A stretch of 50,567 nucleotides of DNA from a virus. Positions 11,701 to 50,297 of this stretch are shown one piece after another. Each line of letters begins with the position of its first letter. Within the stretch, counting starts at the first letter, position 1. The stretch lies in the IMG/VR virus record IMGVR_UViG_3300006751_004945, positions 1 to 50,567 of that record. One strand, 5' to 3'. The notes beneath the pieces are model-generated. The model did no database searches. It saw only the letters and a list, made by a program, of their open reading frames with translations, and had not been told where the DNA came from. The position numbers and the translations under genes were made by a program.

Positions 11701-11827
11701 CATCGTCGATTGATAGATCTAAGCGTAGCCTGACAAGATCTCTCTGTCCCGACTCCAGCAAAATTCTGTCTATGTTTATGAAGGGAACAAATGAGGTCTG
11801 TTGAGATGTTGTAAGAAGGCGCGCCAT
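8747..11827 (-). CDS. Large putative virion protein (1026 aa)
   Basis: This large protein has no motif I can tie to a family. The N-terminus (MARLLTTSQQTSFVPFINID) opens a region of alternating strands and helices. Residues of about 330-365 are very basic (KKILRNSRISEMKITRRRVKK), and the C-terminal quarter is Pro/Ser/Lys-rich. The start codon shares one base with the stop of the previous gene (TAATG), implying translational coupling. It is followed one base later by the FN3-bearing tail gene. I infer a structural or assembly role in the tail from its place in the run of virion genes. Confidence 0.6.
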   Translation of the reverse strand: MARLLTTSQQTSFVPFINIDRILLESGQRDLVRLRLDLSIDDVLDNPDKSWLLQEDYRKFLKIAIIQSNSQKTTDLIANKSISQIMKNSGDYIQYEFWLNDALPDFNKDKYLVDPLVADNQGLVYRVPFVLPDNIIIQLDLKDHLSIFAYAYVDLAALSKSRGLNFPAGTFTDKTLGEISGEAVVRKGSISLESYLFLTSGKDGEQIWTGPVAKSKDGKSYYAPNTSPLKVLKRVSTPNYKVQDLRRREITEAESPKLFLAKEALYGGRKEPALYGVQKSLKNGQFLNLGVKTENYYSQGETSRSDAGVVSFIFDINFENLLKDNTIFWPLLERPARKKILRNSRISEMKITRRRVKKQTTASSLGTTIDDISIFDVNEAPELIALNGESRNIRFLTKKLYYGHLSAGDRKKDNFIGCVGEMRKNTKKVSPDPVRRFISVDNSLIKKTYGLYQYGITMQIEDGTVIFLQDSLKKITSALTVLRNYYTISTSVNFYDAFNRKFKRKLSKFYAANGQRPWQAGIWAYVEVLSDFMDLGLPKRSAIIKELTAISNPVLGTPEGIMALINLLLNFETLIYEMLVGKVKVSDQQIDGSLSRIYNNNNYEKFMVVCEHFFNSTVDADVVASDGHKVLPTNTPILYLKDFLNRSKEEALKYFTNDNPKDIEKGLGKVPGLNDENKGISNLSDSFYTYFTPQSITAGGNKLELQNKGTAIWQNGRYESFTSYLMSAPPGPKPTLPPFSIETKGTTSTLALMEKLLGSYSVTITPTMLENKDTKETKPTIPPSCDNDFSVTGPRPEKTAYSPTLSKGLTTIGSIFTSAASNKALEPSPSLSMPNFNLASNENLVDTKIRKSKLKTGQLEGLPNQISSLFLSKSPAVVNNWQEYEKDGIDFPSSEKTNLMFLYNYSTLFKLEYQDGYEKDKLGKILIKQPIWKSFSENTLDRVTTGEALLCRVEKYENDEIGIIHHDILDLPVIDKYFFFVKNKTTLKRLETSADPHSSPDELRKEDTLRSLATAPFSKSLVARKK

Positions 11828-38280: not shown

Positions 38281-38309
38281 ATTATAACCTTTTATTCCGC
38301 ATTTGTCAA
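38281..38309 (-). promoter_or_regulatory. Perfect-consensus sigma70 promoter for the sigma-factor operon
   Basis: On the minus strand TTGACA (38309-38304), a 17-base spacer and TATAAT (38286-38281) match the bacterial sigma70 consensus exactly. The predicted start lies near 38274, about 15 bases before the ATG at 38259. It sits in the 63-base gap after the sugar dehydrogenase, separating the carbohydrate operon from the late-regulator genes. Confidence 0.85.
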
Positions 38310-38322
38310 GGAATAAAGTGAA

Positions 38323-39141
38323 TTATTTTGATTTTGTGACTGCACCAGGAATATCTAGCCAATTTCTATCTCTCCTGACTTCTAAATTTTTTTCCCAAGA
38401 AGATTTTAGAACCCCTGGCTCAACTCCAATCTGAATTGCGTAGTTAATGAATGCGTTAATATCTTTTGGAAAACATTTTCCACCGAAACCCAGATTACCA
38501 TCTGTTCCCGGAACGAGAGTGTGCATTGGGTTGACCCACCCAGATGAAAGCATGCCATCCAAAGTGTGCTCCCAGTTTATCCCATCTTTGTTGGCCATTT
38601 GTTTAAATTCGTTCATAATAGAGATTTTAACAGCAGAAAAACAATTAGAAACATATTTGATGAAGCACGCAGTTTTATGATCTGTCTCTATATATTTTAC
38701 CTTTGGGAAAACTTTCTCGTAAATTGACCTAACTTCTCCAGTATCTTCTGGAGTGCCTCCCAAAACAATTCTAGAGGGATTTTTGAAATCTTCTTTTGCT
38801 GTCTTCTCTGTGAGGAATTCTGGATTTAAAATTATTCTATGTCTATTGTTTTCTAATAATTCTTCTGCGGCGTGAGGAGTTATTGTTGATTTAATAATCA
38901 AAATCTTGTCTGTATTTACTTCATCTAACACAGATTGGATAATAGATACGTCTATTTCGCCAGTCTCCAACATTGGTGTCGGAACACAGATGAAAACATA
39001 TTTCGCATTTCTATTTATCTCTTCCACAGAAGAAGTCGATTTAGAGGGGTCCTTATCACAAACAAGAATATCGTAATAATTATTCAACCCTTCGTAGATC
39101 GCCTCTCCGACGAAACCATTTCCGATTATTGCAAGCTTCAT
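38323..39141 (-). CDS. Nucleotide-sugar dehydrogenase, UGD/WbpA type, lacking C-terminal domain
   Basis: This 272-residue NAD-dependent 6-dehydrogenase would oxidise a UDP-hexose (UDP-GlcNAc in the proposed pathway) to the uronic acid. Motifs are the NAD site GNGFVG (7-12), NPEFLTE (106-112), FIKYVSN (160-166) and the catalytic Cys C223 in GFGGKCFPKD. Family members usually have about 430 residues. Here the N-terminal and central domains are complete, but the C-terminal UDP-binding domain is absent and no frameshift remnant follows. Substrate identity is therefore inferred from the neighbouring WbpB/D/E/I-like genes. GGAGG lies upstream. It is the last gene of the carbohydrate operon. Confidence 0.82.
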   Translation of the reverse strand: MKLAIIGNGFVGEAIYEGLNNYYDILVCDKDPSKSTSSVEEINRNAKYVFICVPTPMLETGEIDVSIIQSVLDEVNTDKILIIKSTITPHAAEELLENNRHRIILNPEFLTEKTAKEDFKNPSRIVLGGTPEDTGEVRSIYEKVFPKVKYIETDHKTACFIKYVSNCFSAVKISIMNEFKQMANKDGINWEHTLDGMLSSGWVNPMHTLVPGTDGNLGFGGKCFPKDINAFINYAIQIGVEPGVLKSSWEKNLEVRRDRNWLDIPGAVTKSK

Positions 39142-39305
39142 CGTGTGCCTCCATATTCAAAATTATATTTAAAATTATTTATGTCCTCTTTACACAATTT
39201 ATAAACGACCTCAATCATATCATCATCATAAAACAAAGAATAATGTTTTTTTTCATTTTTCAAACACCAATAAATCACATTTTTTATCCACAAATCTAAA
39301 TCCAT
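39138..39305 (-). CDS. Possible small ORF (55 aa) coupled to the dehydrogenase gene
   Basis: A 55-codon frame fills the otherwise empty 110 bases between the methyltransferase and the dehydrogenase. It ends in an ATGA overlap with the dehydrogenase start, a junction typical of this operon. The product is charged and aromatic (HYSLFYDDDMIEVVYKLCKE). The first ATG (39305) lies inside the methyltransferase end and lacks a clear ribosome site. A TTG at 39263 or the ATG at 39218 are alternatives. Function unknown; it might also be non-coding or a remnant. Confidence 0.4.
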   Translation of the reverse strand: MDLDLWIKNVIYWCLKNEKKHYSLFYDDDMIEVVYKLCKEDINNFKYNFEYGGTR

Positions 39306-39870
39306 TATTTTTCATATCTTGGAATACTTGCCAATCAGGTCGCAAATTAATATGTTCTGGTAGGACTGTTTTCCCCAAATATACGCAAAATTTTCCTTGC
39401 TTTTTCAATACTCTGTGGACTTCTCTTATTGATTTAAAATATGTATTCTCGTCTAAATGCTCATAAAAATCTGTCGACGTACAAAAATCATATTTTTCAC
39501 TCTCATCTGATAATTCAGAGCAATTTTCAGTTCTCAATTCTACAATCTGAGGGATCAGATCTTTCAAAAAATCATGTATTAATTCTGTATTTTTGTTAAA
39601 ATCAATTGCTGTAATTTTACAATTTGGAAAGATCTTGGATAAAAAATAAATTCCCCTTCCATTAGTAAACCCAAGATCTAGTCCGTGGCCAGCAAGATCT
39701 ATGCCGGCAAACCATTTCTGATAGCGTGTAAGTAGATGTGGGCGATGATTTGTATAATAATTTTTTAGATATTCTACGCTATCACAATTAAAAAACCAAT
39801 TTTTATCATAATTTTCTTCATACCACAGACTCAATTCTTCTTCCGTAAGATTTAATAATTCTTTATCCAT
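39253..39870 (-). CDS. Class I SAM-dependent methyltransferase
   Basis: This 205-residue Rossmann methyltransferase has the SAM-binding motif I GLDLGFTNGRG near residues 62-72. It also has an acidic strand-2 end (ITAIDFN), a motif near STDFYEHLDEN, and the REVHRVLKKQGKFCVY strand of class I enzymes. In a glycan operon it could methylate a sugar or intermediate, but the substrate is unknown. I chose the second ATG (39870), which is 7 bases from GGAGG; the first, at 39876, is only one base from it. It sits between the GT4-like transferase and the small ORF. Confidence 0.75.
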   Translation of the reverse strand: MDKELLNLTEEELSLWYEENYDKNWFFNCDSVEYLKNYYTNHRPHLLTRYQKWFAGIDLAGHGLDLGFTNGRGIYFLSKIFPNCKITAIDFNKNTELIHDFLKDLIPQIVELRTENCSELSDESEKYDFCTSTDFYEHLDENTYFKSIREVHRVLKKQGKFCVYLGKTVLPEHINLRPDWQVFQDMKNNGFRFVDKKCDLLVFEK

Positions 39871-39888
39871 CCTCATTCCTCCAAAATA

Positions 39889-40926
39889 TTATAAAATTTT
39901 TCTCAAAGTTTCTTCAATTATGTCAGCAGATTGTTCCATCGTATTTATATTTAATAAATTATTTGTGGCACTCTCGTAAAGAGGATCAGAGAGGTAAGCC
40001 AGACTTTTGCCCCCGATAGCTACACTAAAAAGCTCTTTTATCTTTTCTGACATTTCTTTTTCATTATCAACCCACACTAAAGTATCTCCATATAATTCTT
40101 TTATGTATTCAATATTATAATTTATGGTTGGAACACCAACCAAGGCCGCCTCTAGCTGTGGGAGGCCATGCCATGCACTTAATTGAAAGAGGGCGCCAGA
40201 GAGAAGAGTATATTTCTTTTCTCCATTTATGTTTGAAAAAAATTTCACCTCTGTATTTGAGTCTTTAAATAAATTTTCTATCCTATGCTGTTCTGGTCCA
40301 GATCCAACTATGACCCAGGTTGTTTTTAGGTTTGCACACCTTACTGCTTCCGCTATTTTGTAAACCAGCTTATTTGGTACAAGTCTGGAAACTGTTATAA
40401 AATAATTTCTTTTTTTGTTATTTCTTTCTTTGTTCAAATTAATTGTCGCATGGGGATATTTTATAAAGCAATTATCCATTTTATTATTTGAGAACTTTAC
40501 AGCAGATTCTTTAAAAGAGACACCAGCACACGAATTAATGTTGCTATTGATAGAACACTTAATTATCTTATCATATTTTGAATAAAATGACTTATTTTTA
40601 TATAAGTGTTTTGCATCGCCCTCTTGGAAACCCCACTTTAACGGATCGTCACCACCGGGATATCCAAAAATCCTAAATGGAGGAATCCACTCCCAGTGTG
40701 AATAGATCGGAATTCCCATTTTTTGAGAAATTTCATATGCATATGGAATGCAAGCCTCCATAGCCGCAAAAACCACGTCATACCTTGTTTGGAGATCTGG
40801 GATCCTAGAGGTACCATAAACTAATAAATCTAATTTTTCAAATCTTTGTGATAAGAATTCTGCCATATCTATCTGTGGTGACCTATTTGCTACACCATTT
40901 GGTGTTATGTATAAAACTTTTGTCAT
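39889..40926 (-). CDS. Glycosyltransferase, GT4-like (GT-B fold)
   Basis: This 345-residue probable glycosyltransferase has a GT-B fold. The C-terminal half carries the typical sequence YFITVSRLVPNK, then TTWVIVGSGPEQHRIENLF, and a donor-side region LSAWHGLPQLEAALVGVPTI with the acidic E preceding the conserved A. The N-terminal acceptor domain is divergent. It overlaps the oxidoreductase upstream in an ATGA junction, so it belongs to the same transcript as the sugar nucleotide genes. Donor and acceptor are unknown; the local pathway's product is a plausible donor. Confidence 0.78.
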   Translation of the reverse strand: MTKVLYITPNGVANRSPQIDMAEFLSQRFEKLDLLVYGTSRIPDLQTRYDVVFAAMEACIPYAYEISQKMGIPIYSHWEWIPPFRIFGYPGGDDPLKWGFQEGDAKHLYKNKSFYSKYDKIIKCSINSNINSCAGVSFKESAVKFSNNKMDNCFIKYPHATINLNKERNNKKRNYFITVSRLVPNKLVYKIAEAVRCANLKTTWVIVGSGPEQHRIENLFKDSNTEVKFFSNINGEKKYTLLSGALFQLSAWHGLPQLEAALVGVPTINYNIEYIKELYGDTLVWVDNEKEMSEKIKELFSVAIGGKSLAYLSDPLYESATNNLLNINTMEQSADIIEETLRKIL

Positions 40927-41861
40927 CTTAAATACCTCAATAGTGGGTGTGAAAAATTATTTGGGGCCTGATGAATTTTGGATTTGTTTATTTTCGATGC
41001 CAATTCTAAAGAAGGGGACAAATCGTCAATACCAAATCCGCCACCCTTTAGTATTTCTACATATGATTTCGTGTGCAAGTCTTCGAAGCCATGGCTAAAT
41101 TCAAATTCTTTTTTTCCAATTTTTATGGATCTATACATTTTTTTTGAAATTTTATTTTGCCTCAACAGCTCACCGTCAATGCTTAATAGCCACTTAATGT
41201 TGGCCCTTTCGAGCTTTAAAAATCCAAAAATCGTTTTGTTTTCTTTAAGAAAAACTACATTTTCTAGTGGGGGACCAAATATCCACATCAACATATCAAA
41301 AAAATGTATACCAATATTCATTGAGAGGCCGCCGGATTTACTAATGTTCGATTTCCAAGAATAATCATACCACTTACCACGAGAGGTAATATAAGTCAAC
41401 TCAATATCATAAACCTTGTTATTATTAATGCTTTGTTTCAGGTCTATAACGGATTCATGTAGGCGTAGTTGTAAAATATTATTTATTTTTCTGCCACTTT
41501 CCTTTTCTAGTAGTTTTAGATATTTTACATTTTTTGGATTAATCACTAAAGGCTTTTCACAAATAACCTCACAGTCATTCCTGAGTCCCAGTCGGATGTG
41601 AGAATCATGAAGATAGTTCGGGGAACAAATGCTCAAATAATCAAGGCCTTTGCCAGAACGCCTCATTTTATCAATATGTCTTTCAAACCTCTCTGTTTCG
41701 GTAAAAAACGACGATTCAGGAAAATAGGAATCAATAATTCCCACAGAATCAAAAGGATCTAGTGCTGCATTGAGAATATTTCCAGTATCTTTTATCGCCC
41801 TCATGTGCCTCGGTGCGACATAGCCCGCCGCACCGATTAATCCAAATTTATTTTTTTTCAT
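40923..41861 (-). CDS. wbpB: WbpB/WlbA-like UDP-sugar 3-oxidase (Gfo/Idh/MocA)
   Basis: This 312-residue NAD-dependent oxidoreductase closely resembles WbpB/WlbA, which oxidises C3 of UDP-GlcNAcA. The opening FGLIGAAGYVAPRHM (6-20), the segment ALDPFDSVGIIDSYFP (33-48), SICSPNYLHDSHIRL and the catalytic CEKPLVINP (K103) are all diagnostic. So is NIGIHFFDM with H186. Length fits the family (about 315). In known pathways it works in tandem with the PLP aminotransferase WbpE, recycling its NAD through 2-oxoglutarate; a WbpE-like gene lies two genes upstream. The start overlaps the acetyltransferase by 14 bases. This is one of the strongest assignments in the window. Confidence 0.88.
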   Translation of the reverse strand: MKKNKFGLIGAAGYVAPRHMRAIKDTGNILNAALDPFDSVGIIDSYFPESSFFTETERFERHIDKMRRSGKGLDYLSICSPNYLHDSHIRLGLRNDCEVICEKPLVINPKNVKYLKLLEKESGRKINNILQLRLHESVIDLKQSINNNKVYDIELTYITSRGKWYDYSWKSNISKSGGLSMNIGIHFFDMLMWIFGPPLENVVFLKENKTIFGFLKLERANIKWLLSIDGELLRQNKISKKMYRSIKIGKKEFEFSHGFEDLHTKSYVEILKGGGFGIDDLSPSLELASKINKSKIHQAPNNFSHPLLRYLR

Positions 41862-42264
41862 TTTTTATAATTTCCTTTGCTGGGTTTCCGCATACAATTC
41901 CGTGTGGCGCAACATCCCTCGTCACCACCGAGCCGGCGCCTATTGTGGCATTTCGACCTATCGTTAGGTTTGGTAAAATTGTGGAATTTGCACCTATAGA
42001 GGCGCCGGACTCGACGATAGTTGGCGGCAAATCACGCCACGCGCCGTTGGAAGGAGCGTGCTTATCGTTCGTAAACACAACATGTGGGCCGATGAAAACA
42101 TTATCCTCGATAATGACATTTTCTGGAATGAATGATGCACAACCTATAGATACTCCTTTTCCTATTTTAACATTTTTTCCTATTTCGGCAAAGGCTCCGA
42201 CTTTCACGTCTTCTCCCAAAATTGCACTATCGTATACGTTCGACATCGGATGTATGTAGCTCAC
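41848..42264 (-). CDS. wbpD: Hexapeptide-repeat N-acetyltransferase, WbpD-like
   Basis: This 138-residue left-handed beta-helix acyltransferase has hexapeptide repeats (such as VKIGKGVSIG, LTIGRNATIG) and an NDKHAPSNGAWRD loop at about 65-78. It ends in GAGSVVTRDV and a CGNPAKE cap. In the proposed pathway it would acetylate the C3 amino group made by the aminotransferase, giving the 2,3-diacetamido sugar. It is shorter than bacterial WbpD (about 190 residues). The start is GTG at 42264, overlapping the aminotransferase stop (GTGA), with AGGAG upstream. The acetyltransferase class is firm; the WbpD role is inferred from context. Confidence 0.8.
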   Translation of the reverse strand: MSYIHPMSNVYDSAILGEDVKVGAFAEIGKNVKIGKGVSIGCASFIPENVIIEDNVFIGPHVVFTNDKHAPSNGAWRDLPPTIVESGASIGANSTILPNLTIGRNATIGAGSVVTRDVAPHGIVCGNPAKEIIKNEKK

Positions 42265-43334
42265 GAGAAACTCCTAATTTTTTCTACAATATATTCCCTC
42301 TCTTTCTTCGACAGTCCAGGATAAATTGGTATTGATAGACATTGTAGACTTCTTTTTTCTGTTTCTGGCAATCCTATGAGCGCCTTATTGTCAAAGAAAG
42401 CGCATTTATGTATTGGCTTTGGATAATAAATTGCCACGCCTATGCCATTGTTCTCCAAATATTTCTTTAGTGAATCTCTTCTTTCTGATAATAAAGTAAA
42501 TTGATTCCACGAATGATGAATGGTGTTGCTTGGGAGCCTTATATCCCTTATTTCTTGCAAGTTTTCTAAATAATATTTTGCATTAAGTTTTCTTTTTTCA
42601 ATCCATGAATCCACCGATTCCAACATAACCCGCAAGAATGATGCCTGAATTGTATCCAGCCTAAAGTTTCCGCCTAGAATACTATAATCATATTTTATCT
42701 TGCAACCATGCTGGCAAACTACTCGGACTTTTTTAATAAACTCCTCCGAGCTTGTTACGACGGCGCCGCCATCCCCCAGGCATCCGAGATTTTTTGCCGG
42801 GAAAAAACTGAATGCTGATGCAAAATAATCACTACTATATTTTGTTCCAAAAGATTGAGCACAATCACCGATCAGATAAGCACCGCGATGATCACAGATC
42901 TTTTTCAAATCAGATGCATCATAATATTCGCCGAACAAATTTACAAAAATAACAGCCCTAGTGTTCTGTGTCCATGCGGCTTCGATCTCTTCGGATCCAA
43001 CGAGAAAAGAGCCTTTTGACAAATCTGCAAACACTGGATTGTGGCCGGCTCTGACAACAGACATGGCGGTTGCGCCAAACGTAAAAGATGGAACAATGAT
43101 ATCTGAGCCCGGAGGCAACTGGAGGGCAATCAAAATAGATAATAGAGCATCCGTACCACTAGACACTCCTTTGCAGTATTTTTCTCCAGTTTTGCGAGAG
43201 AATTCCTGCTCGAATAACTCAACCGGCTTTCCGTTAATGAAGTTACAAGTTTTTAAGTTTTTTTTAAAAGAATTCAATAAATCATCTTCGCATTGTTTTA
43301 TTATTCTGGATAGATCAAAAAGAGGGACATTCAT
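42261..43334 (-). CDS. wbpE: DegT/DnrJ/EryC1 PLP aminotransferase, WbpE-like
   Basis: This 357-residue sugar aminotransferase has SSGTDALL (58-65), IVPSFTFGATA (80-90), IGDCAQSFG (155-163) and the PLP-binding Lys K181 in FFPAKNLGCLGDGG. It would transfer an amino group to the 3-keto sugar made by the WbpB-like enzyme. Length and all core residues fit the family. The ATG at 43334 follows GGGGAGG and overlaps the epimerase gene by 20 bases. The pairing with WbpB and WbpD makes the UDP-3-amino-GlcNAcA assignment likely; other 3- or 4-keto sugars are possible. Confidence 0.85.
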   Translation of the reverse strand: MNVPLFDLSRIIKQCEDDLLNSFKKNLKTCNFINGKPVELFEQEFSRKTGEKYCKGVSSGTDALLSILIALQLPPGSDIIVPSFTFGATAMSVVRAGHNPVFADLSKGSFLVGSEEIEAAWTQNTRAVIFVNLFGEYYDASDLKKICDHRGAYLIGDCAQSFGTKYSSDYFASAFSFFPAKNLGCLGDGGAVVTSSEEFIKKVRVVCQHGCKIKYDYSILGGNFRLDTIQASFLRVMLESVDSWIEKRKLNAKYYLENLQEIRDIRLPSNTIHHSWNQFTLLSERRDSLKKYLENNGIGVAIYYPKPIHKCAFFDNKALIGLPETEKRSLQCLSIPIYPGLSKKEREYIVEKIRSFS

Positions 43335-44343
43335 CTTTTTCCTCCCCTAAAATAGTATTTATAATTATTCTCGATGGGCTTCCTTCATTTATGTAGAGGT
43401 CTGTAATTCTTTTTATTTTTGAGTTAAAAATCCACTCCCTTAGTTCGCATGGCCTGAAGTCATCAAACTTCTTAACAATCCCAACTTCTTCGGTCTCGAC
43501 CCATTCCGTATTTTTTCTCACAACAATTGTCGGCTTTCCAAAAAAACCACTTGTTTTTTGTATGCTTCCGGAATCCGTTATAATAAACTTTGCACAAGAT
43601 AGTAAATTTACCATCTCAGTATAACTCACCGGGGGGATCAAATCAAGATTTTTTGGTATTTTTATCTGTGAAATATATTGTTTTATTCTGTGATGTACTG
43701 GAAAGATTATTTTATTTTCTGTATTCTTACAAAAATCCATTATACACTTTAATCTCTCCAAGTTGCAGTTCGACTGTCTGTGTACTGTCATGACACCAAA
43801 ATCACCGCGAGAGATGCTGGGATTCATATTGTTTAGCAGCTCATATTCTAGGTCCCCGGTATAAATTCCTTCTTTAGATTTTAGATTCTCGACAGCATCG
43901 TATGAAGAACAAAATTTCCAAGTAGAAACCGAATCTGCAAATAATCTATTTATTTCTTCTGGGACTGAAATGTCTCCACAACGCATACCGGATTCTATGT
44001 GTGCAAGAGGAATTCCCATCTTGTAAGATGCCAAGGAGCCGCAAAATGTTGAATTCGTATCGCCTATAACAATTACAATGTCTGGTTTTTCTTTTTCTAA
44101 AATCTTTTCTAATTTTTTAGAAGTTTCGCAGATGAATATAATTTCAGACCCCATTGGGTTCCTTATTTGATAATCTATTTTCAATTTTAGATCTCTTATG
44201 ATATTCCCAGAAACGCTCTCAGAATAATGCTGGCTTGTGTCCACAACAAAGTGCTTCAACTTTCTAATCTTCAGCATATCTACGAGGGGCTTTATTTTTA
44301 TATATTGTGGCCGTGTGCCAATGATAATTCCAATATTATTCAT
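43315..44343 (-). CDS. wbpI: UDP-sugar 2-epimerase, WbpI-like
   Basis: This 342-residue non-hydrolysing UDP-GlcNAc 2-epimerase-family enzyme retains the catalytic set: D95 in GDTNSTF, E117 in HIESG, E129/E130 in VPEEINR and H187 in TVHRQSN, followed by TDSGSIQ. It carries TEWVE (278-282), as in WbpI-type enzymes acting on UDP-diacetamido-glucuronic acid, rather than the TERPE of WecB. In the pathway it converts the gluco- to the manno-configured sugar. The WecB-like alternative (UDP-ManNAc from UDP-GlcNAc) cannot be excluded. The ATG abuts the previous stop (TAAATG). Confidence 0.85.
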   Translation of the reverse strand: MNNIGIIIGTRPQYIKIKPLVDMLKIRKLKHFVVDTSQHYSESVSGNIIRDLKLKIDYQIRNPMGSEIIFICETSKKLEKILEKEKPDIVIVIGDTNSTFCGSLASYKMGIPLAHIESGMRCGDISVPEEINRLFADSVSTWKFCSSYDAVENLKSKEGIYTGDLEYELLNNMNPSISRGDFGVMTVHRQSNCNLERLKCIMDFCKNTENKIIFPVHHRIKQYISQIKIPKNLDLIPPVSYTEMVNLLSCAKFIITDSGSIQKTSGFFGKPTIVVRKNTEWVETEEVGIVKKFDDFRPCELREWIFNSKIKRITDLYINEGSPSRIIINTILGEEKDECPSF

Positions 44344-45207
44344 TTATTGTGGGCCGTCCATAATATTGGTGATGTCAGCTGCCCAAGCCAATCTACTAAA
44401 TTTTTTTACTTTTTTGTATCCATTTTGTGAAATTAGTTTCATTTTTTTTGGGTTTTGTAAGTAGTGATTTATCTTTTCATTTAGGTCTCTATTATTTTCA
44501 AAAATGACCAAGTCTTCCCCATTTATAAAATCTCTCCCTCTACCATCCCAGTCATCAGTAATTAAAAATCCCCCAGAAGCCATGATCTTGTATACTCTGT
44601 CAGAGGCGCCATTCGATGTGCATAAATTTAAATTTATTCTTGTTTGGCTAACAACCTTGGCATGCTCGGAGCCAAACTTGTTATTGAAAAGAGAGACATT
44701 CCTTTTTATTGATTTTATTTTGGAAAGCCTGTTCCCATAAATCGACCCAATAAAAGATAAATCATATTTTTTTGCTAAATTATGTGGCCTATCAACAAAC
44801 TGATCGTACCCCTCACAAACTCTAAATGAATTTTGATTAATCTCTCCAGCAACATCGAGAACGTTCTTTTTATCACAAAAGAAAAAATCTGCTTTTTTTG
44901 TTTTTCTTTTCATTTCCTCATTATATGAACTTAAAGGATCCATGAACCACAAAGATATTTTAGAGTACTCCCTTATTTTATCAAAAATATTAATATTTTC
45001 ACCTTTGCTAATCAAGACATGATCGAAATTTCCCGCCCTAATGATCTCCAAAAGATGATCATCTCTTTTTGAAAACCCCATTTTTTTAGCATTTTCTCTA
45101 AAATTATAACCCACAACGTGGTGGCCACACTGAATTAGGTTTCTTAATTGAGAGTTATTTGTACTTTTATATAAATTATCAAAGACTGCTACAAATAAAA
45201 TTTTCAT
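44344..45207 (-). CDS. CgeB-like glycosyltransferase
   Basis: This 287-residue protein resembles CgeB/Glyco_trans_1_2 glycosyltransferases. It has a Rossmann N-terminus (MKILFVAVFDN), a YDLSFIGSIYGNR strand near 150, an INLNLCTSNGASDRVYKIMA donor-side helix near 190-210, and a SGGFLITDDWDGRGRDFINGEDLVIF segment typical of the C-terminal domain. The acceptor is unknown. It overlaps the previous gene by an ATGA junction and is followed without a gap by the epimerase gene, so sugar synthesis and transfer are co-expressed. Confidence 0.75.
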   Translation of the reverse strand: MKILFVAVFDNLYKSTNNSQLRNLIQCGHHVVGYNFRENAKKMGFSKRDDHLLEIIRAGNFDHVLISKGENINIFDKIREYSKISLWFMDPLSSYNEEMKRKTKKADFFFCDKKNVLDVAGEINQNSFRVCEGYDQFVDRPHNLAKKYDLSFIGSIYGNRLSKIKSIKRNVSLFNNKFGSEHAKVVSQTRINLNLCTSNGASDRVYKIMASGGFLITDDWDGRGRDFINGEDLVIFENNRDLNEKINHYLQNPKKMKLISQNGYKKVKKFSRLAWAADITNIMDGPQ

Positions 45208-45935
45208 TTTGACACTTCTCTATAAAATCTTAAAACTTCATTTCTTTGTTTATAAAACTCAGTGTGGTTTTGTTGATGACTTAGGGCTTCGTCCCCAAAA
45301 CCCCTTCTGTGTTTATATTTGTCAGAATTTATGTGGGGGCCCTGTTTAATAACATAAGTATCTACCTCTCTTTTTCCCCTATTTAAATAAGATAAGGCAA
45401 TATCTTCACAATTATTATATCCATTTGTAATGTGATTATCCAACATACACTCTATACTTTCTCCGGATAAAAACCAGCCGTTTGTTCCAATATCAACTTT
45501 ACTAAAATTTGAATAATTGACAGATCCCAACATTGTATTTGGAAAATATTTATCAGTTTTAAAAATCCTGCCTGATGATCCAATTATACAATCTTTTTCC
45601 TTTTTTGAGAATCTCTCATAAAAGTGTAGGCATTTTTCGCAATAATTTTCGGTTGGAAACATATCATCATCTATAATGAAAAATAAATTTTCTTTGCTAT
45701 CTCTAGCCATCTCAAATCGAGAAAATACAGAACCACCGTCTTCGATTGTTAATATTCTATCTACTTTATTTTCCAAATCTTCTAAAAAATGAGAATTTTC
45801 AGAATTCAATCCATGACAAATCCAAACCTCCTTTGGGGGAACTGTTTGATTTGTGAATAAATCTACTTGCTCCTCTAACCACTCGCCGCGCTTCCACAAA
45901 CTCAATATGACTATGTACTCTGGGGGTGTATTCAT
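45204..45935 (-). CDS. GT-A fold glycosyltransferase-like protein
   Basis: This 243-residue protein starts with YIVILSLWKRGEWLEEQVDLF and has a DDD motif (FFIIDDDMFP, about 85-94), the metal/UDP-sugar site expected for GT-A enzymes. A later NNCEDIALSYLNRG segment corresponds to the acidic acceptor-side motif. The ATG overlaps the prior stop (ATGA) behind an AAAGGA site. It is near in kind to the next upstream gene, which also has a DDD motif, so the two may be distant relatives. Donor and acceptor are not readable. Confidence 0.7.
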   Translation of the reverse strand: MNTPPEYIVILSLWKRGEWLEEQVDLFTNQTVPPKEVWICHGLNSENSHFLEDLENKVDRILTIEDGGSVFSRFEMARDSKENLFFIIDDDMFPTENYCEKCLHFYERFSKKEKDCIIGSSGRIFKTDKYFPNTMLGSVNYSNFSKVDIGTNGWFLSGESIECMLDNHITNGYNNCEDIALSYLNRGKREVDTYVIKQGPHINSDKYKHRRGFGDEALSHQQNHTEFYKQRNEVLRFYREVSK

Positions 45936-46600
45936 CGATTATCCTTTCTGTTTCCAATGTGAAATGCCCGTGCCGACAAGATAAAATCAACTTCAAATCC
46001 TGCCTCCTTTATGGCAAAGCTCCATCTAACATCAGGCGCTTGCTGGAATATCCCAAATGGTTCCACCATCCCATAAACATCCTTGTGTACAATGGAATTG
46101 GAGACGTAACATGTGGGGGACCTCTCAATATAGCCAGAATCAACATCATATTTTAAACCTCGATGCCTAAGACCAAGCTGTGGATTTGGAAATTGCATCC
46201 AATCCTCTCCAAATTCATGCCTTTTCCCACCCCTATCTGTTAATCGAAACCCATATTGTGCCGGAGGTGCATCTTTCAAAAATTCATCGATATTTTTTCT
46301 CCAATCATTATCTGGGATTATATCATCATCCCAGAAAGCTAGCCACTCTTCATTCCTGGTTTTTAATCCCTCTCTGAATTTTCTAGATTTATCCTTTTCC
46401 CACGCATCATATTCAACAAATGTGCCTCCGAGACTCTCTACAGTGTCCCTGAGTCTTTCATTTTTGGGAGATACTAGAGTATATTTTCCTCCGGAAGCTT
46501 CTATACAAGATGGAATGACTTCATTTTTTAAATTGATCATTCTTTTTATATTTTTCTTAGAGGGGCCCGTAGTTACTTGAATTATACCAAAGTCTGTCAT
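45932..46600 (-). CDS. GT-A fold glycosyltransferase-like protein
   Basis: This 222-residue protein has a DDD motif in LAFWDDDIIPDNDW (about 87-100) and a later PDVRWSFAIKEAGFEVDFI region with the acidic residue expected before the acceptor loop. The start is weakly marked: the ribosome site before ATG (AGGTTATTT) is poor, and only three bases separate it from the GT4 gene upstream. It is likely a small family 2-type transferase in the glycan operon. Its specificity is unknown. Confidence 0.68.
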   Translation of the reverse strand: MTDFGIIQVTTGPSKKNIKRMINLKNEVIPSCIEASGGKYTLVSPKNERLRDTVESLGGTFVEYDAWEKDKSRKFREGLKTRNEEWLAFWDDDIIPDNDWRKNIDEFLKDAPPAQYGFRLTDRGGKRHEFGEDWMQFPNPQLGLRHRGLKYDVDSGYIERSPTCYVSNSIVHKDVYGMVEPFGIFQQAPDVRWSFAIKEAGFEVDFILSARAFHIGNRKDNR

Positions 46601-46603
46601 TGA

Positions 46604-47866
46604 CTAAATAACCTCTATCTTTTCAAGCTCTGCGAGCCACTCCATTTCTTCTTCCGATGGATTATAGATATGCTTACAGAACTGACTATACATCCCTTCT
46701 TCTGTAAAGTTCTCAACAAGATACTTTTGAAGCTTCTTGGCATTTCTCTTAAACCGTGAATATTCGCTGCGAACCTCACGCAATCGGCGCTTAAAGGACC
46801 CCTCCCTTGGGAAAGCCCACAGTGAGTCTGCCTGGATAACACCTTCCCAAACCGCCTCTGGTTGAACATTTTGAAGATCATATTCGACGGACGCGAACAT
46901 TGGCTTTTTCTTTCCACTCTTCCTTCGTGCGTCTGGCATATAAAGGAAATCACAGTGACCCGACCATCCGGAAACAACTACTGGCAACCCATTATAAGCT
47001 GCTTCAAAAAGTGGTAGCCCATATCCCTCGCCATGGGCTGTAGAAACAAGTGCCTTAATTTTGGAATGCTGATATAGACCATTCATTTCTTCAGGAGTTA
47101 AATCTCCATGCAAAAGATATACTTTACATTTGCAGTTGTCTCCTCCATATCTTTGAAGCAGAGATTTAAGCCTTGATCCGGTGTGCTCCCTGTCGATGAT
47201 GCTGTTATTTTTGACTGAAGTCTTGAGGACAAGTCCGACTTCTTGATCAAAATTCTCTTCCAGGAACCATTTGACGAGATTGTCAAAGTTCTTTCTTGGG
47301 CCCCATTGAGAAATTGCAAGGTAATTAAAGTCGTAATCGAGCTTTAAATTAAGCTTTTGTTTCTTGAAATTTCTAACAGGATAATTAACCACTTCGATTG
47401 GAGTTTGACAAGCTAAGTGAACAGGTTGTCCGGTTTGGTTGTTTTGCCCCTGGTATGTTGTGTTTTCAAAAACATCCTTCGAATGATTTGAAACAACGAT
47501 GATCTTATCCATTTCGTTGGCTTTTTGGAGCCATACGGGAGCGACCTTTGTCGTTTCAATTCCTGCGGTATATCCGATATTGATAGGTGCGATTCTTTCC
47601 CACTCGTTTGGAATTGTCACCTGCACGGAAATATCAAACTGTCCACCCTGCTGCGTGAAGACATGTGTTTGTGCGATTCTTTCATCCATCCACGTTCTTT
47701 CTTCGTTTGAATCACTTACCCAGCCGGTCTGACCCCAGTTTGTTGGGACAATATAAATATCGAATAGATCTGGCCTTGATCGGAGAGCGCGGAGAGCAAA
47801 CCTTGCCTGCTCTCCGTATCCGGATTGTGATAAAACTGGCCCTTTTAATATGATTTTATGCTTCAT
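46604..47866 (-). CDS. Glycosyltransferase, GT4 type (GT-B fold)
   Basis: This 420-residue GT-B transferase starts MKHKIILKGPVLSQSGYGEQ, a nucleotide/acceptor-domain glycine turn. The donor domain has YLAISQWGPRKNFDNLV near 195-210 and the diagnostic HGEGYGLPLFEAAYNGLPVV region with GSGWSGHCDF nearby. Glu in the E-x7-E-type region (EGYGLPLFEA) is the expected donor-phosphate contact. It overlaps the neighbouring GT4 gene by ATGA behind AAGGAG. The two tandem GT4 genes have the same length but different sequences. Confidence 0.8.
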   Translation of the reverse strand: MKHKIILKGPVLSQSGYGEQARFALRALRSRPDLFDIYIVPTNWGQTGWVSDSNEERTWMDERIAQTHVFTQQGGQFDISVQVTIPNEWERIAPINIGYTAGIETTKVAPVWLQKANEMDKIIVVSNHSKDVFENTTYQGQNNQTGQPVHLACQTPIEVVNYPVRNFKKQKLNLKLDYDFNYLAISQWGPRKNFDNLVKWFLEENFDQEVGLVLKTSVKNNSIIDREHTGSRLKSLLQRYGGDNCKCKVYLLHGDLTPEEMNGLYQHSKIKALVSTAHGEGYGLPLFEAAYNGLPVVVSGWSGHCDFLYMPDARRKSGKKKPMFASVEYDLQNVQPEAVWEGVIQADSLWAFPREGSFKRRLREVRSEYSRFKRNAKKLQKYLVENFTEEGMYSQFCKHIYNPSEEEMEWLAELEKIEVI

Positions 47867-49125
47867 TTTGTAATCTCCTTAAAATCCCACGGTTTATATC
47901 CTTTTCTCGTTTCCCACGAGCCATGATTCTCTACAACCGAGTCGATTAGGTCGACCCATTGTTTTTGGAAGTTTTCGAAATTGTAATTTTTTGTGACATG
48001 GTGGCGCCCTTTCATGCCGAGGAGGCGCCTCTCTTCATGACTCATCGAAAAAATGTCTCTCAGAGCCTGTATAAAGTCTTCCTTAGAAATCCTGTCCTCA
48101 TAGATGTATGGAACCTGCTGAGAGCCTATGATAGCCCTTGAGGCCGGCGTAAGACCTATTCCAAACCACTGTTCTCCGTCTGTTACTTGTTCTTGCAGGC
48201 CTCCAGTCATGTTGACGATAATCGGAGTCTGACACGCAAGCGATTCTAGAGTTGCTAGGCCGAAGCCTTCTGCATCTGAAATATTAATCGTGCAATCTGA
48301 CATGTTATACATCGCAGCCAGGGCGGATGGGGCTATTTTTTTAGTAGAAAAAATAATGCGACCATCAGTAGCTCCTAAATCCTCCAGAATTTTTTCCAAG
48401 TTTGGACCGTTAGGGTCGTGTGGATCCGTGTGCATGAGCAAGCGCACCTTGTCCGGCCCAACTTCATTCGCGAATTCATTAAACCAATAAATTAAGGAAC
48501 CTGACATCTTTCTTCTAGCATTCCTATTGTTCCAGAAGAAAGTGACTCGGCCACTTTCTTCTTTAAAATGTGTTTTTCTGAGTTTGGCTATTTGATCGTC
48601 AGGAAATGGATGAAAAATAGAAGCGTCAACCGCGTGTGGAATATAATGATTTTCAACATGAGGAGAAACCCTATTGACGATATCGTATGTAACCTTAGAA
48701 ATAGAAGCTATAACATCCGTCGAACTATAAAATTGATTATTAAAAGTAGGAAGGGGATAATTGTCCCAAACATGATAATAAACCATCGGAACATGTTTTC
48801 TGACCTCATTTTCTATCATCCACAGAAAGCCATAAAAGCGAGGATCAGTCATAAACCAAAGCAAGTCTGGCTTTTCATTGAAAATTAAAGATCTAATCAT
48901 CTCTTGGCTTCCGTACCCCTTGACGGGGTGAATTATCCAGTCTTCCTCAAATGGTGTGACCCTTTGCGGCTTGTAGTCTTTGTGAGCTACTGCTCCACCT
49001 AAACAAACAAATTTATAACGGCCGGTCTTTAGAAGTGTCTCAATAATATATTTAGTTTGTGTGCCGACTCCCGATGGAGCCAGCGGGTGATCAGAGATCA
49101 CCAAAATCTTCTTTTTTTCTGTCAT
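47863..49125 (-). CDS. Glycosyltransferase, GT4 type (GT-B fold)
   Basis: This 420-residue transferase starts KKILVISDHPLAPSGVGTQT, the glycine-rich loop of the N-terminal Rossmann domain. The donor side shows FFWNNRNARRKMSG near 195-210 and the EGFGLATLESLACQTPIIV motif (about 290-310) with the paired glutamates that hold the nucleotide-sugar. It is the first glycosyltransferase in the operon. A stop-to-start gap of eight bases and an AGAGG ribosome site follow the PD-(D/E)XK gene. Donor and acceptor are unknown. Confidence 0.82.
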   Translation of the reverse strand: MTEKKKILVISDHPLAPSGVGTQTKYIIETLLKTGRYKFVCLGGAVAHKDYKPQRVTPFEEDWIIHPVKGYGSQEMIRSLIFNEKPDLLWFMTDPRFYGFLWMIENEVRKHVPMVYYHVWDNYPLPTFNNQFYSSTDVIASISKVTYDIVNRVSPHVENHYIPHAVDASIFHPFPDDQIAKLRKTHFKEESGRVTFFWNNRNARRKMSGSLIYWFNEFANEVGPDKVRLLMHTDPHDPNGPNLEKILEDLGATDGRIIFSTKKIAPSALAAMYNMSDCTINISDAEGFGLATLESLACQTPIIVNMTGGLQEQVTDGEQWFGIGLTPASRAIIGSQQVPYIYEDRISKEDFIQALRDIFSMSHEERRLLGMKGRHHVTKNYNFENFQKQWVDLIDSVVENHGSWETRKGYKPWDFKEITK

Positions 49126-49895: not shown

Positions 49896-50297
49896 TTATT
49901 CCTCGGTGACAGATTGTGCCTCAGATGATGTGATAGTTTCTTTTTTCTCTACTTCTATTATAACATCTTCAGGAGATTTGTCAAGTACTTTTTCTACTTT
50001 TTCTACTTTTTTTCTGGTTCTTCGGGCTTTTTTCTTAACTGGCGTTATTCTTTTTATTTTTTTGACACATTCAAAAACCCAAGTTGCCTGATTGGAGCCT
50101 TTTTCTGTGTTTTTTAATAATAGTGGCCCTTCGATAAATTTATCGAAAGCCTCTTTTCTTGAGACCAACAGGCGCTCTACCATTGCTCTCGTTATCTTGA
50201 GCCTCCCAACAGAACCATACCTGTCGAAAAGCGGAAGTTTAATGCTGACATAAATTTTATTTTGTTTTTTGGTAATTTCTACCCATTCGCTATTCAT
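49896..50297 (-). CDS. Hypothetical protein with basic, low-complexity C-terminus
   Basis: This 133-residue protein has a folded-looking N-terminal 85 residues (VSIKLPLFDRYGSVGRLKITR and a TWVFECVKKIKR strand). A basic KKKARRTRKKVEKVEKVL linker and an acidic Ser/Glu tail follow. The start overlaps the previous stop by 8 bases (ATGAATAG) behind GAGGAA. No family is recognised. The basic linker could bind nucleic acid, in keeping with the neighbouring nuclease, but this is inference. Confidence 0.6.
   Translation of the reverse strand: MNSEWVEITKKQNKIYVSIKLPLFDRYGSVGRLKITRAMVERLLVSRKEAFDKFIEGPLLLKNTEKGSNQATWVFECVKKIKRITPVKKKARRTRKKVEKVEKVLDKSPEDVIIEVEKKETITSSEAQSVTEE
49957..49984 (-). promoter_or_regulatory. 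sigma70-type promoter inside the 133-residue gene
   Basis: On the minus strand TTGACA (49984-49979), a 16-base spacer and TATAAT (49962-49957) are both perfect hexamers. The expected start is near 49950, giving a 55-base leader to the nuclease TTG at 49895. It could drive the nuclease and the glycan operon. Being inside a coding region, its use needs proof. Confidence 0.5.

Follow-up and report, generated by a model that had tools for sequence, protein, structure and literature searches.

Locus organization

The sequence analyzed, referred to here as the window, is a 50,567 nt IMG/VR contig from an uncultivated tailed phage, and it also carries baseplate genes. Its glycan gene island is on the minus strand (Table 1). 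Five open reading frames of the island, taken in order of rising coordinates from 38323, have Pfam matches to UDPG_MGDP_dh_N plus UDPG_MGDP_dh, GFO_IDH_MocA, Hexapep, DegT_DnrJ_EryC1 and Epimerase_2, respectively. A previous reading, made from the sequence alone, had placed these five in one overlapping operon that encodes a route from UDP-GlcNAc to UDP-ManNAc3NAcA. All five are confirmed in position and strand. The overlap holds for the genes of the epimerase, aminotransferase, acetyltransferase (D) and WbpB, each of which overlaps the next, and wbpB overlaps a glycosyltransferase gene; however, the gene of the short dehydrogenase (sDH) is not contiguous with wbpB. The glycosyltransferase gene, a methyltransferase gene and a gap of 111 nt lie between them. 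In viral contig L005, a copy of the methyltransferase gene (82% identical) lies immediately before wbpI on its upstream side, and copies of the glycosyltransferase gene follow wbpB in L005 (57% identical) and L089 (56%). The order wbpI-wbpE-wbpB recurs in other viral contigs. No clear membrane segment, flippase or polymerase was found among the proteins of the island.

Table 1. Features of the glycan island in the window, with the evidence for each and the predicted pathway step
Feature	Position	Strand	Evidence and predicted role
Perfect sigma-70 consensus promoter, TTGACA-16-TATAAT	49957..49984	-	Upstream of exonuclease/glycan operon
GT-B glycosyltransferase	47863..49125	-	PF00534; 78% identical in L003
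GT-B glycosyltransferase	46604..47866	-	PF00534; 76% identical in L003
Possible glycosyltransferase	45932..46600	-	Weak NCBIfam match only; 58% identical copy in L003
Possible GT-A type glycosyltransferase	45204..45935	-	Weak PF09258, below its cut-off; operon context
Glycosyltransferase-like	44344..45207	-	PF13524
WbpI-type UDP-GlcNAc3NAcA 2-epimerase, 342 aa	43315..44343	-	8sxv, RPQ and TEW motifs; step 5
WbpE-type C3 aminotransferase, 357 aa	42261..43334	-	PF01041, 3nyu, tree; step 3
Compact left-handed beta-helix N-acetyltransferase D, 138 aa, GTG start	41848..42264	-	Hexapep; step 4, WbpD role
WbpB-type 3-dehydrogenase of UDP-GlcNAcA, 312 aa	40923..41861	-	3oa2 match; step 2
GT-B glycosyltransferase	39889..40926	-	PF00534
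SAM-dependent methyltransferase	39253..39876	-	PF13649/PF08241
sDH, compact two-domain UGD-type sugar 6-dehydrogenase, 272 aa	38323..39141	-	PF03721 and PF00984 only; proposed step 1
Perfect sigma-70 consensus promoter, TTGACA-17-TATAAT	38281..38309	-	Just past sDH stop; marks start of next transcription unit

The operon is bounded by two perfect sigma-70 consensus promoters, where 0.06 would be expected in the whole window. Both are found in L003, the one upstream of the exonuclease gene at the same relative position (2032–2059) and the one after the sDH stop at the same place (11768–11796). The operon is probably run from a host-type sigma-70 promoter. T4-type late promoter motifs (TATAAATA) are above chance in the window, yet 8 of 10 are in the opposite orientation to the genes and they are therefore not considered to be promoters of this operon.

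Predicted enzymes of steps 2 to 5

Steps 2 to 5 are assigned from protein family, from signature residues and from the conservation of neighbouring genes. Among PDB entries, the predicted WbpB is most similar to P. aeruginosa WbpB (3oa2, E = 1.7e-95, residues 5–309), a resemblance well beyond what chance would give, and the next PDB match that is not a WbpB has an E value of 4e-8. K103 (in EKP) and H186 (in GxHxxD) are invariant in five phage homologues; we take this Lys and His to be the catalytic residues of the superfamily. By sequence comparison the identity of WbpB appears nearly unambiguous.

The aminotransferase matches WbpE (3nyu) with E = 4e-52, and its best single PDB match is QdtB. 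The PLP lysine, Lys181, and Asp157 are invariant. It has the signature GTDAL, LGC and RLDT in common with WbpE, where QdtB, 7b0d and 5u1z have RLDE. The sequence-only reading had named grouping with other sugar routes as the point to check for this enzyme and for the epimerase. In the tree, the aminotransferase falls in a C3-aminotransferase clade (98–99% support) with 17 of 19 wbpB-adjacent viral enzymes and bacterial wbpB-linked ones, apart from WecE, although the viral clade is not cleanly split from QdtB-type (dTDP-sugar C3) enzymes. A loop deletion is present in this protein. It is not regarded as decay, since the genes of L090, L094 and L100 are similarly shortened and otherwise intact.

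The D enzyme has a Hexapep match of 85 bits, and its best PDB matches are sugar N-acetyltransferases, including QdtC and the WlbB-type 3mqg. Residues F64-T65-N66 are invariant with bacterial WbpD in the alignment. Compact D enzymes are 130–138 aa, compared with about 190–200 aa in wbpB-linked bacterial WbpD, and one coil and the C-terminal tail are missing. The motif is FTNDK, as in other C3-amino-sugar acetyltransferases, where bacterial WbpD has FTNVxNPR. Because of its length, this motif and the missing coil and tail, the enzyme is called WbpD-like by role and is not classified as WbpD.

The epimerase matches 8sxv with E = 3e-40. In the T. thermophilus UDP-GlcNAc3NAcA 2-epimerase, Trp307 replaces an Arg that is conserved in UDP-GlcNAc 2-epimerases (PMC10622841). 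The phage protein has W281 (in TEWVE) at this discriminating position, together with an RPQ motif. Fourteen viral epimerases in wbpB loci have RPQ and a detectable Trp, whereas RPE and Arg are found in E. coli WecB and in three viral epimerases encoded in wbpB-free loci. The epimerase is therefore unlike a UDP-GlcNAc 2-epimerase. Ile17 and Ile93 are found where T. thermophilus has Ala18 and Tyr96, which are secondary WbpI determinants. Tyr is present at the latter position in L002, L003, L005, L114, L117 and L120, and Tyr or Phe in most viral homologues. Ala18 and Tyr96 are not treated as defining WbpI because the accommodating changes have been described for one structure.

The short dehydrogenase

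The sDH residues T86, E108, K162, N166, C223 and D227 show little or no variation among 40 viral homologues. The predicted fold is confident (AF2 pLDDT 95.5), with UGDHs as the best Foldseek matches. Catalytic residues are in fact kept in all five enzymes, as had been claimed, but sDH is without the whole C-terminal UDP-binding domain and D falls about 60 residues short of bacterial WbpD in length. By Pfam, the UDP-binding domain (PF03720) is absent from the sDH protein and from the window. It was not found as a separate gene in 15 viral contigs and is present in both bacterial genomes searched. Among the versions of the route that were examined, the shortened first enzyme is seen only in viral ones. 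An assembly break in a longer gene is rejected as an explanation, since dozens of other contigs encode the dehydrogenase at this length.

The sDH motif is the UGD-type GGKCFPKD and the profile matches are also UGD-type; bacterial WbpA encoded beside wbpB has GGHCIGVDPYYL. A diverged WbpA is rejected as well. Grouping with bacterial WbpA gives p-AU values of 0.0013 for the window clade and 0.0002 for all wbpB-adjacent short dehydrogenases. However, of the 18 viral loci that encode a WbpE-type aminotransferase, 12 have a short dehydrogenase gene no more than 2.6 kb from wbpB, compared with 0 of the 42 loci lacking that aminotransferase (Fisher p = 1.3e-8), and for this reason sDH is still probably the enzyme of step 1. 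Exactly one sDH, beside wbpB, is present in 12 of 15 contigs searched whole, including contigs of 231 and 316 kb. Thus sDH is probably a non-orthologous stand-in for WbpA that, judged from sequence and gene context, would convert UDP-GlcNAc to UDP-GlcNAcA.

Other viral contigs and known systems

A total of 66 viral wbpB loci was found. All five genes are present in six other contigs, two of them near-identical (L003, L087/L088, L114, L117 and L120); in other loci the epimerase is absent or, as in L005, a formyltransferase takes the place of D. Genes annotated wbpD, wbpE and ugd, of the same families, already appear in lists of viral auxiliary genes (extracts of PMC13211439, PMC12783922 and PMC12016548). 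They are reported there as single genes, and the extracts describe no complete route, specificity residues or compact dehydrogenase. Calling a full route in a phage unusual thus needs tempering. A literature search returned nothing on a complete Wbp route in a phage or on phage UGDs that lack the UDP domain. A tblastn search of one collection of cultured phages with WbpB gave weak, partial matches only, and the route was therefore not detected in any phage of that collection. Judged by baseplate and sigma-like genes, the closest cultured phage is Flavobacterium phage immuto, at about 30% identity. Cultured phages do encode short UGD-like UDP-glucose dehydrogenases (Campylobacter phage CP220, 256 aa; phage C48C1, 319 aa), but these are not beside wbpB and join the wbpB-adjacent sDHs in the tree only as long, unsure branches.

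Judged by protein family, signature residues and the way the genes are grouped, the phage genes encode the same four late activities as the Wbp/Wlb systems (WbpA-B-E-D-I of P. aeruginosa, T. thermophilus HB27 and Bordetella Wlb), and the predicted product, UDP-ManNAc3NAcA, is also the same. The phage genes differ in being phage-borne, with a non-orthologous two-domain first enzyme that has no UDP-binding domain and a compact acetyltransferase; in addition, several phages have no epimerase, or encode a formyltransferase instead of D. The closest cellular WbpB sequences found are mostly from Bacteroidota (54–63% identity), which have a Wbp/A-LPS system (P. gingivalis ugdA, wbpB, porR and PGN_0002). 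These bacteria mostly have no wbpI near wbpB, with none in P. gingivalis (PMC4031482), and their WbpA is full-length with the GGHCIGVDPYYL motif.

Proposed pathway and alternatives

It is reasonably probable that the block serves the phage as a glycan operon, with a core that makes UDP-2,3-diacetamido-2,3-dideoxy-mannuronic acid, and that the glycosyltransferases of the operon transfer the sugar, more likely to a phage component. In the proposed route sDH, in place of WbpA, would oxidize UDP-GlcNAc at C6, WbpB would oxidize the product at C3, the WbpE-type transaminase would aminate C3, the compact D enzyme would N-acetylate and WbpI would epimerize at C2. The step-for-step match to the bacterial pathway that had been claimed is supported by B, E, D and I, given an epimerase unlike UDP-GlcNAc 2-epimerases and an aminotransferase in the wbpB-linked C3 clade. 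It fails at step 1, because sDH is not related to WbpA (p-AU 0.001) and has no UDP-binding domain.

The UGD-type motif and profile matches of sDH can also be read in another way, with B, E, D and I acting as proposed on UDP-GlcNAcA from a host WbpA, and sDH as a UDP-glucose 6-dehydrogenase that provides other glycosyltransferases in the operon with UDP-GlcA. The relatives of sDH in wbp-free phages often adjoin SDR genes resembling those of UDP-glucuronate pathways, and L002, L004 and L005 have wbpE/wbpB with no sDH-family dehydrogenase on the contig. However, no SDR or UXS-like gene accompanies sDH in the island of the window, the adjacency to wbpB is strongly non-random, and the best tree places the wbpB-adjacent short dehydrogenases on one side of a branch (support 73, not decisive). 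This explanation is considered unlikely. Use of a different nucleotide sugar, e.g., UDP-GlcA leading to a 3-acetamido uronic acid that has no acetamido group at C2, is very improbable; the dehydrogenase is UGD-type, and relatives of the acetyltransferase and aminotransferase act on dTDP sugars, but the match to WbpB is very strong and spans the full length, and WbpI has the UDP-GlcNAc3NAcA-type Trp.

A further alternative concerns the target and not the pathway. ManNAc3NAcA and GlcNAc3NAcA are bacterial surface sugars (PMC10622841, PMC4031482), most bacterial relatives of wbpB come from Bacteroidota, in which A-LPS is supplied by the Wbp pathway (PMC4031482), and a host-type promoter starts the operon. 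The sugar may then alter the surface glycan of the infected cell, resulting in superinfection exclusion or mimicry of a host polysaccharide. The island has no clear membrane-spanning protein, flippase or polymerase, and such a target seems somewhat unlikely. In the favored reading, the glycosyltransferases would act on a cytosolic acceptor; the absence of a clear membrane protein from the island weakly suggests that this is more likely to be a phage component (virion protein or DNA) than a newly made surface polymer.

A broader proposal, which is quite possible but is put forward with less than even confidence, is that tailed phages have assembled their own modular Wbp pathway. It would be started by a compact 6-dehydrogenase without a UDP-binding domain and varied in its last steps (with or without the 2-epimerase, and acetyl or formyl at C3), giving a family of diacylamino uronic acids that modify phage components. 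If this is correct, phages make a rare, charged bacterial surface sugar themselves from host UDP-GlcNAc, a common metabolite, and this would open a testable way to learn which molecules are decorated by the many glycosyltransferase islands of phages. A member of the sDH superfamily that works without the UDP-binding domain would revise what the reaction is thought to need, and sDH would offer a compact catalyst for the synthesis of rare uronic acids.

Gene content and relatives

The five enzymes are encoded by one virus entry of IMG/VR, 50,567 nt long. The same record has genes for baseplate wedge proteins, a primase, a RuvC-like resolvase, a recombination exonuclease and an endolysin-like peptidase. 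Among cultured phages, Flavobacterium phage immuto and Microcystis phage Mel-JY01 come closest, with about 30% identity (baseplate, sigma-like protein). Immuto, the nearest, has a different sugar island (NC_055915, 56000–60000) with a dTDP-sugar transaminase, a pilin-glycosylation-like protein, an epimerase and glycosyltransferases. The sequence-only reading proposed a full route from UDP-GlcNAc to UDP-ManNAc3NAcA, and its five ORFs, checked on the window sequence, are positioned exactly as it placed them.

The diacetamido sugar pathway is already known (PMC10622841), and three reports describe single wbp genes as viral auxiliary genes (PMC13211439, PMC12783922, PMC12016548). A search of open-licence literature turned up neither a complete phage route supported at residue level nor the compact dehydrogenase described below.

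Genes of the proposed pathway, and promoters, in the window
Feature	Position	Strand	Remark
Short dehydrogenase	38323–39141	minus	proposed step 1
wbpB	40923–41861	minus	
D (acetyltransferase)	41848–42264	minus	
wbpE	42261–43334	minus	
wbpI	43315–44343	minus	
Perfect sigma-70 promoter	49984–49957	minus	upstream of exonuclease-glycosyltransferase-wbp block; counterpart L003 2032–2059
Perfect sigma-70 promoter	38309–38281	minus	directly after dehydrogenase stop; counterpart L003 11768–11796

Assignment of the WbpB, WbpI, WbpE and D proteins

The window WbpB matches P. aeruginosa WbpB with E = 1.7e-95, against E = 4e-8 for the next type of protein. Similarity alone is not decisive for the WbpI substrate because both epimerase types match closely (T. 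thermophilus UDP-GlcNAc3NAcA 2-epimerase, E = 3e-40; UDP-GlcNAc 2-epimerase 4neq, 2e-42). A conserved Arg of UDP-GlcNAc 2-epimerases binds the C3 hydroxyl, and the diacetamido enzyme has Trp307 instead, which is the decisive change (PMC10622841). The window protein has Trp281 within TEWVE, and RPQ as in the T. thermophilus enzyme. RPQ with a detectable Trp is found in 14 viral epimerases of wbpB loci; RPE with Arg is found in E. coli WecB and three viral epimerases of loci without wbpB. The lesser determinants Ala18 and Tyr96 are both Ile in the window. A second viral wbpB-linked group (L098, L102, L103, L109) has RPN with His at the Trp/Arg position, and the motif is absent from a few further viral epimerases; both may have a different substrate.

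The top PDB match of the aminotransferase is QdtB, with WbpE lower, and a tree was therefore needed. The window protein and 17 of the 19 viral aminotransferases encoded beside wbpB belong to one clade, which has 98–99% support and also contains wbpB-linked bacterial enzymes and QdtB; WecE and the viral aminotransferases of wbpB-less loci lie elsewhere. Its GTDAL, LGC and RLDT motifs are WbpE-like; three dTDP-type PDB enzymes have RLDE. About six residues of the VGTxGD loop preceding the PLP-lysine strand are missing near residue 170, and the loop is shortened similarly in L090, L094 and L100. The D protein is a compact acetyltransferase of the hexapeptide type; its nearest PDB relatives, QdtC and WlbB-type 3mqg among them, are sugar N-acetyltransferases. 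One coil and the C-terminal tail of bacterial WbpD are missing from it, and FTNDK stands in place of FTNVxNPR.

The short dehydrogenase

Bacterial WbpA adjoining wbpB is 415–459 aa with the motif GGHCIGVDPYY. The phage enzyme is UGD-type, 272 aa, has GGKCFPKD and consists of the NAD and central domains only. Its oxidation-chemistry residues, whose roles we take to be those of UDP-glucose dehydrogenase, are kept in 40 viral homologues. The AlphaFold model is a confident two-domain fold (pLDDT 95.5, pTM 0.90) with UDP-glucose dehydrogenases as best PDB matches. The missing domain, PF03720, was found in both bacterial genomes searched and in none of 15 viral contigs searched. The short viral enzymes form their own clade in the tree; a grouping with bacterial WbpA was rejected (p-AU 0.0013 and 0.0002). 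Relatives are very common in viral contigs, at least 589 among at least 600 matched stretches, and SDR epimerase/decarboxylase-like genes often adjoin them (L155–L233, the best 80 of the at least 589).

We lean towards the short enzyme as step 1. It is within 2.6 kb of wbpB in 12/18 viral loci with a WbpE-type aminotransferase (window included) and in 0/42 without (Fisher p = 1.3e-8; non-redundant counts made by hand, ignoring phylogeny and contig ends). Exactly one copy, beside wbpB, is present in 12 of 15 contigs searched whole, among them contigs 231 and 316 kb long. Twelve short dehydrogenases tested jointly, 11 beside wbpB plus that of L155, where the contig stops too early for a wbpB to be visible, all lie on the same side of a branch, whose support is only 73. 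Three phages with wbpE and wbpB have no short dehydrogenase, so the host may instead supply UDP-GlcNAcA; SDR genes as common neighbours of the relatives, as in UDP-GlcA routes, likewise speak against the short enzyme as step 1.

Expression and target

The two perfect sigma-70 promoters (0.06 expected) are conserved in position in the related phage L003. Because they stand at both edges of the block and recur in L003, the block is probably transcribed as one host-type unit, apart from the virion genes after it. The window also has 10 T4-late-promoter-like octamers (TATAAATA; 4.25 expected), eight of them on the opposite strand from the genes. None of the island proteins contains a strong membrane segment, which mildly favours a cytosolic acceptor of the sugar; the top membrane score, 1.72, is in a stretch of the aminotransferase that belongs to a soluble fold by homology.

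Distribution and variation in viruses

Searching with two short peptide patterns gave 66 viral wbpB loci; all five genes are present in six of them (L003, L087, L088, L114, L117, L120; two near-identical). A terminase gene above the family cut-off is present as well on the contigs holding L004, L086 and L120, which are therefore phages. Variation of the cassette is modular. Contigs of L004, L090, L094 and L100 have no epimerase, and several of these variant contigs are fragments, so that absence of a gene is no proof. PF00551 formyl transferase genes occur in the wbp-carrying phages L005 (9293–9967) and L002 (5478–6242). The L005 gene lies between wbpE and wbpB and D is absent, which suggests a 3-formamido sugar variant. 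Cellular WbpB relatives are mainly from Bacteroidota, where the pathway serves A-LPS (PMC4031482).

Between the window (38323–49125) and L003, wbpI, wbpE and wbpB are only 49–62% identical and most flanking genes 70–91%, and the window WbpB is placed with those of L089 and L005 in a tree (support 88). From this divergence and placement, the cassette seems to have been exchanged between phages.
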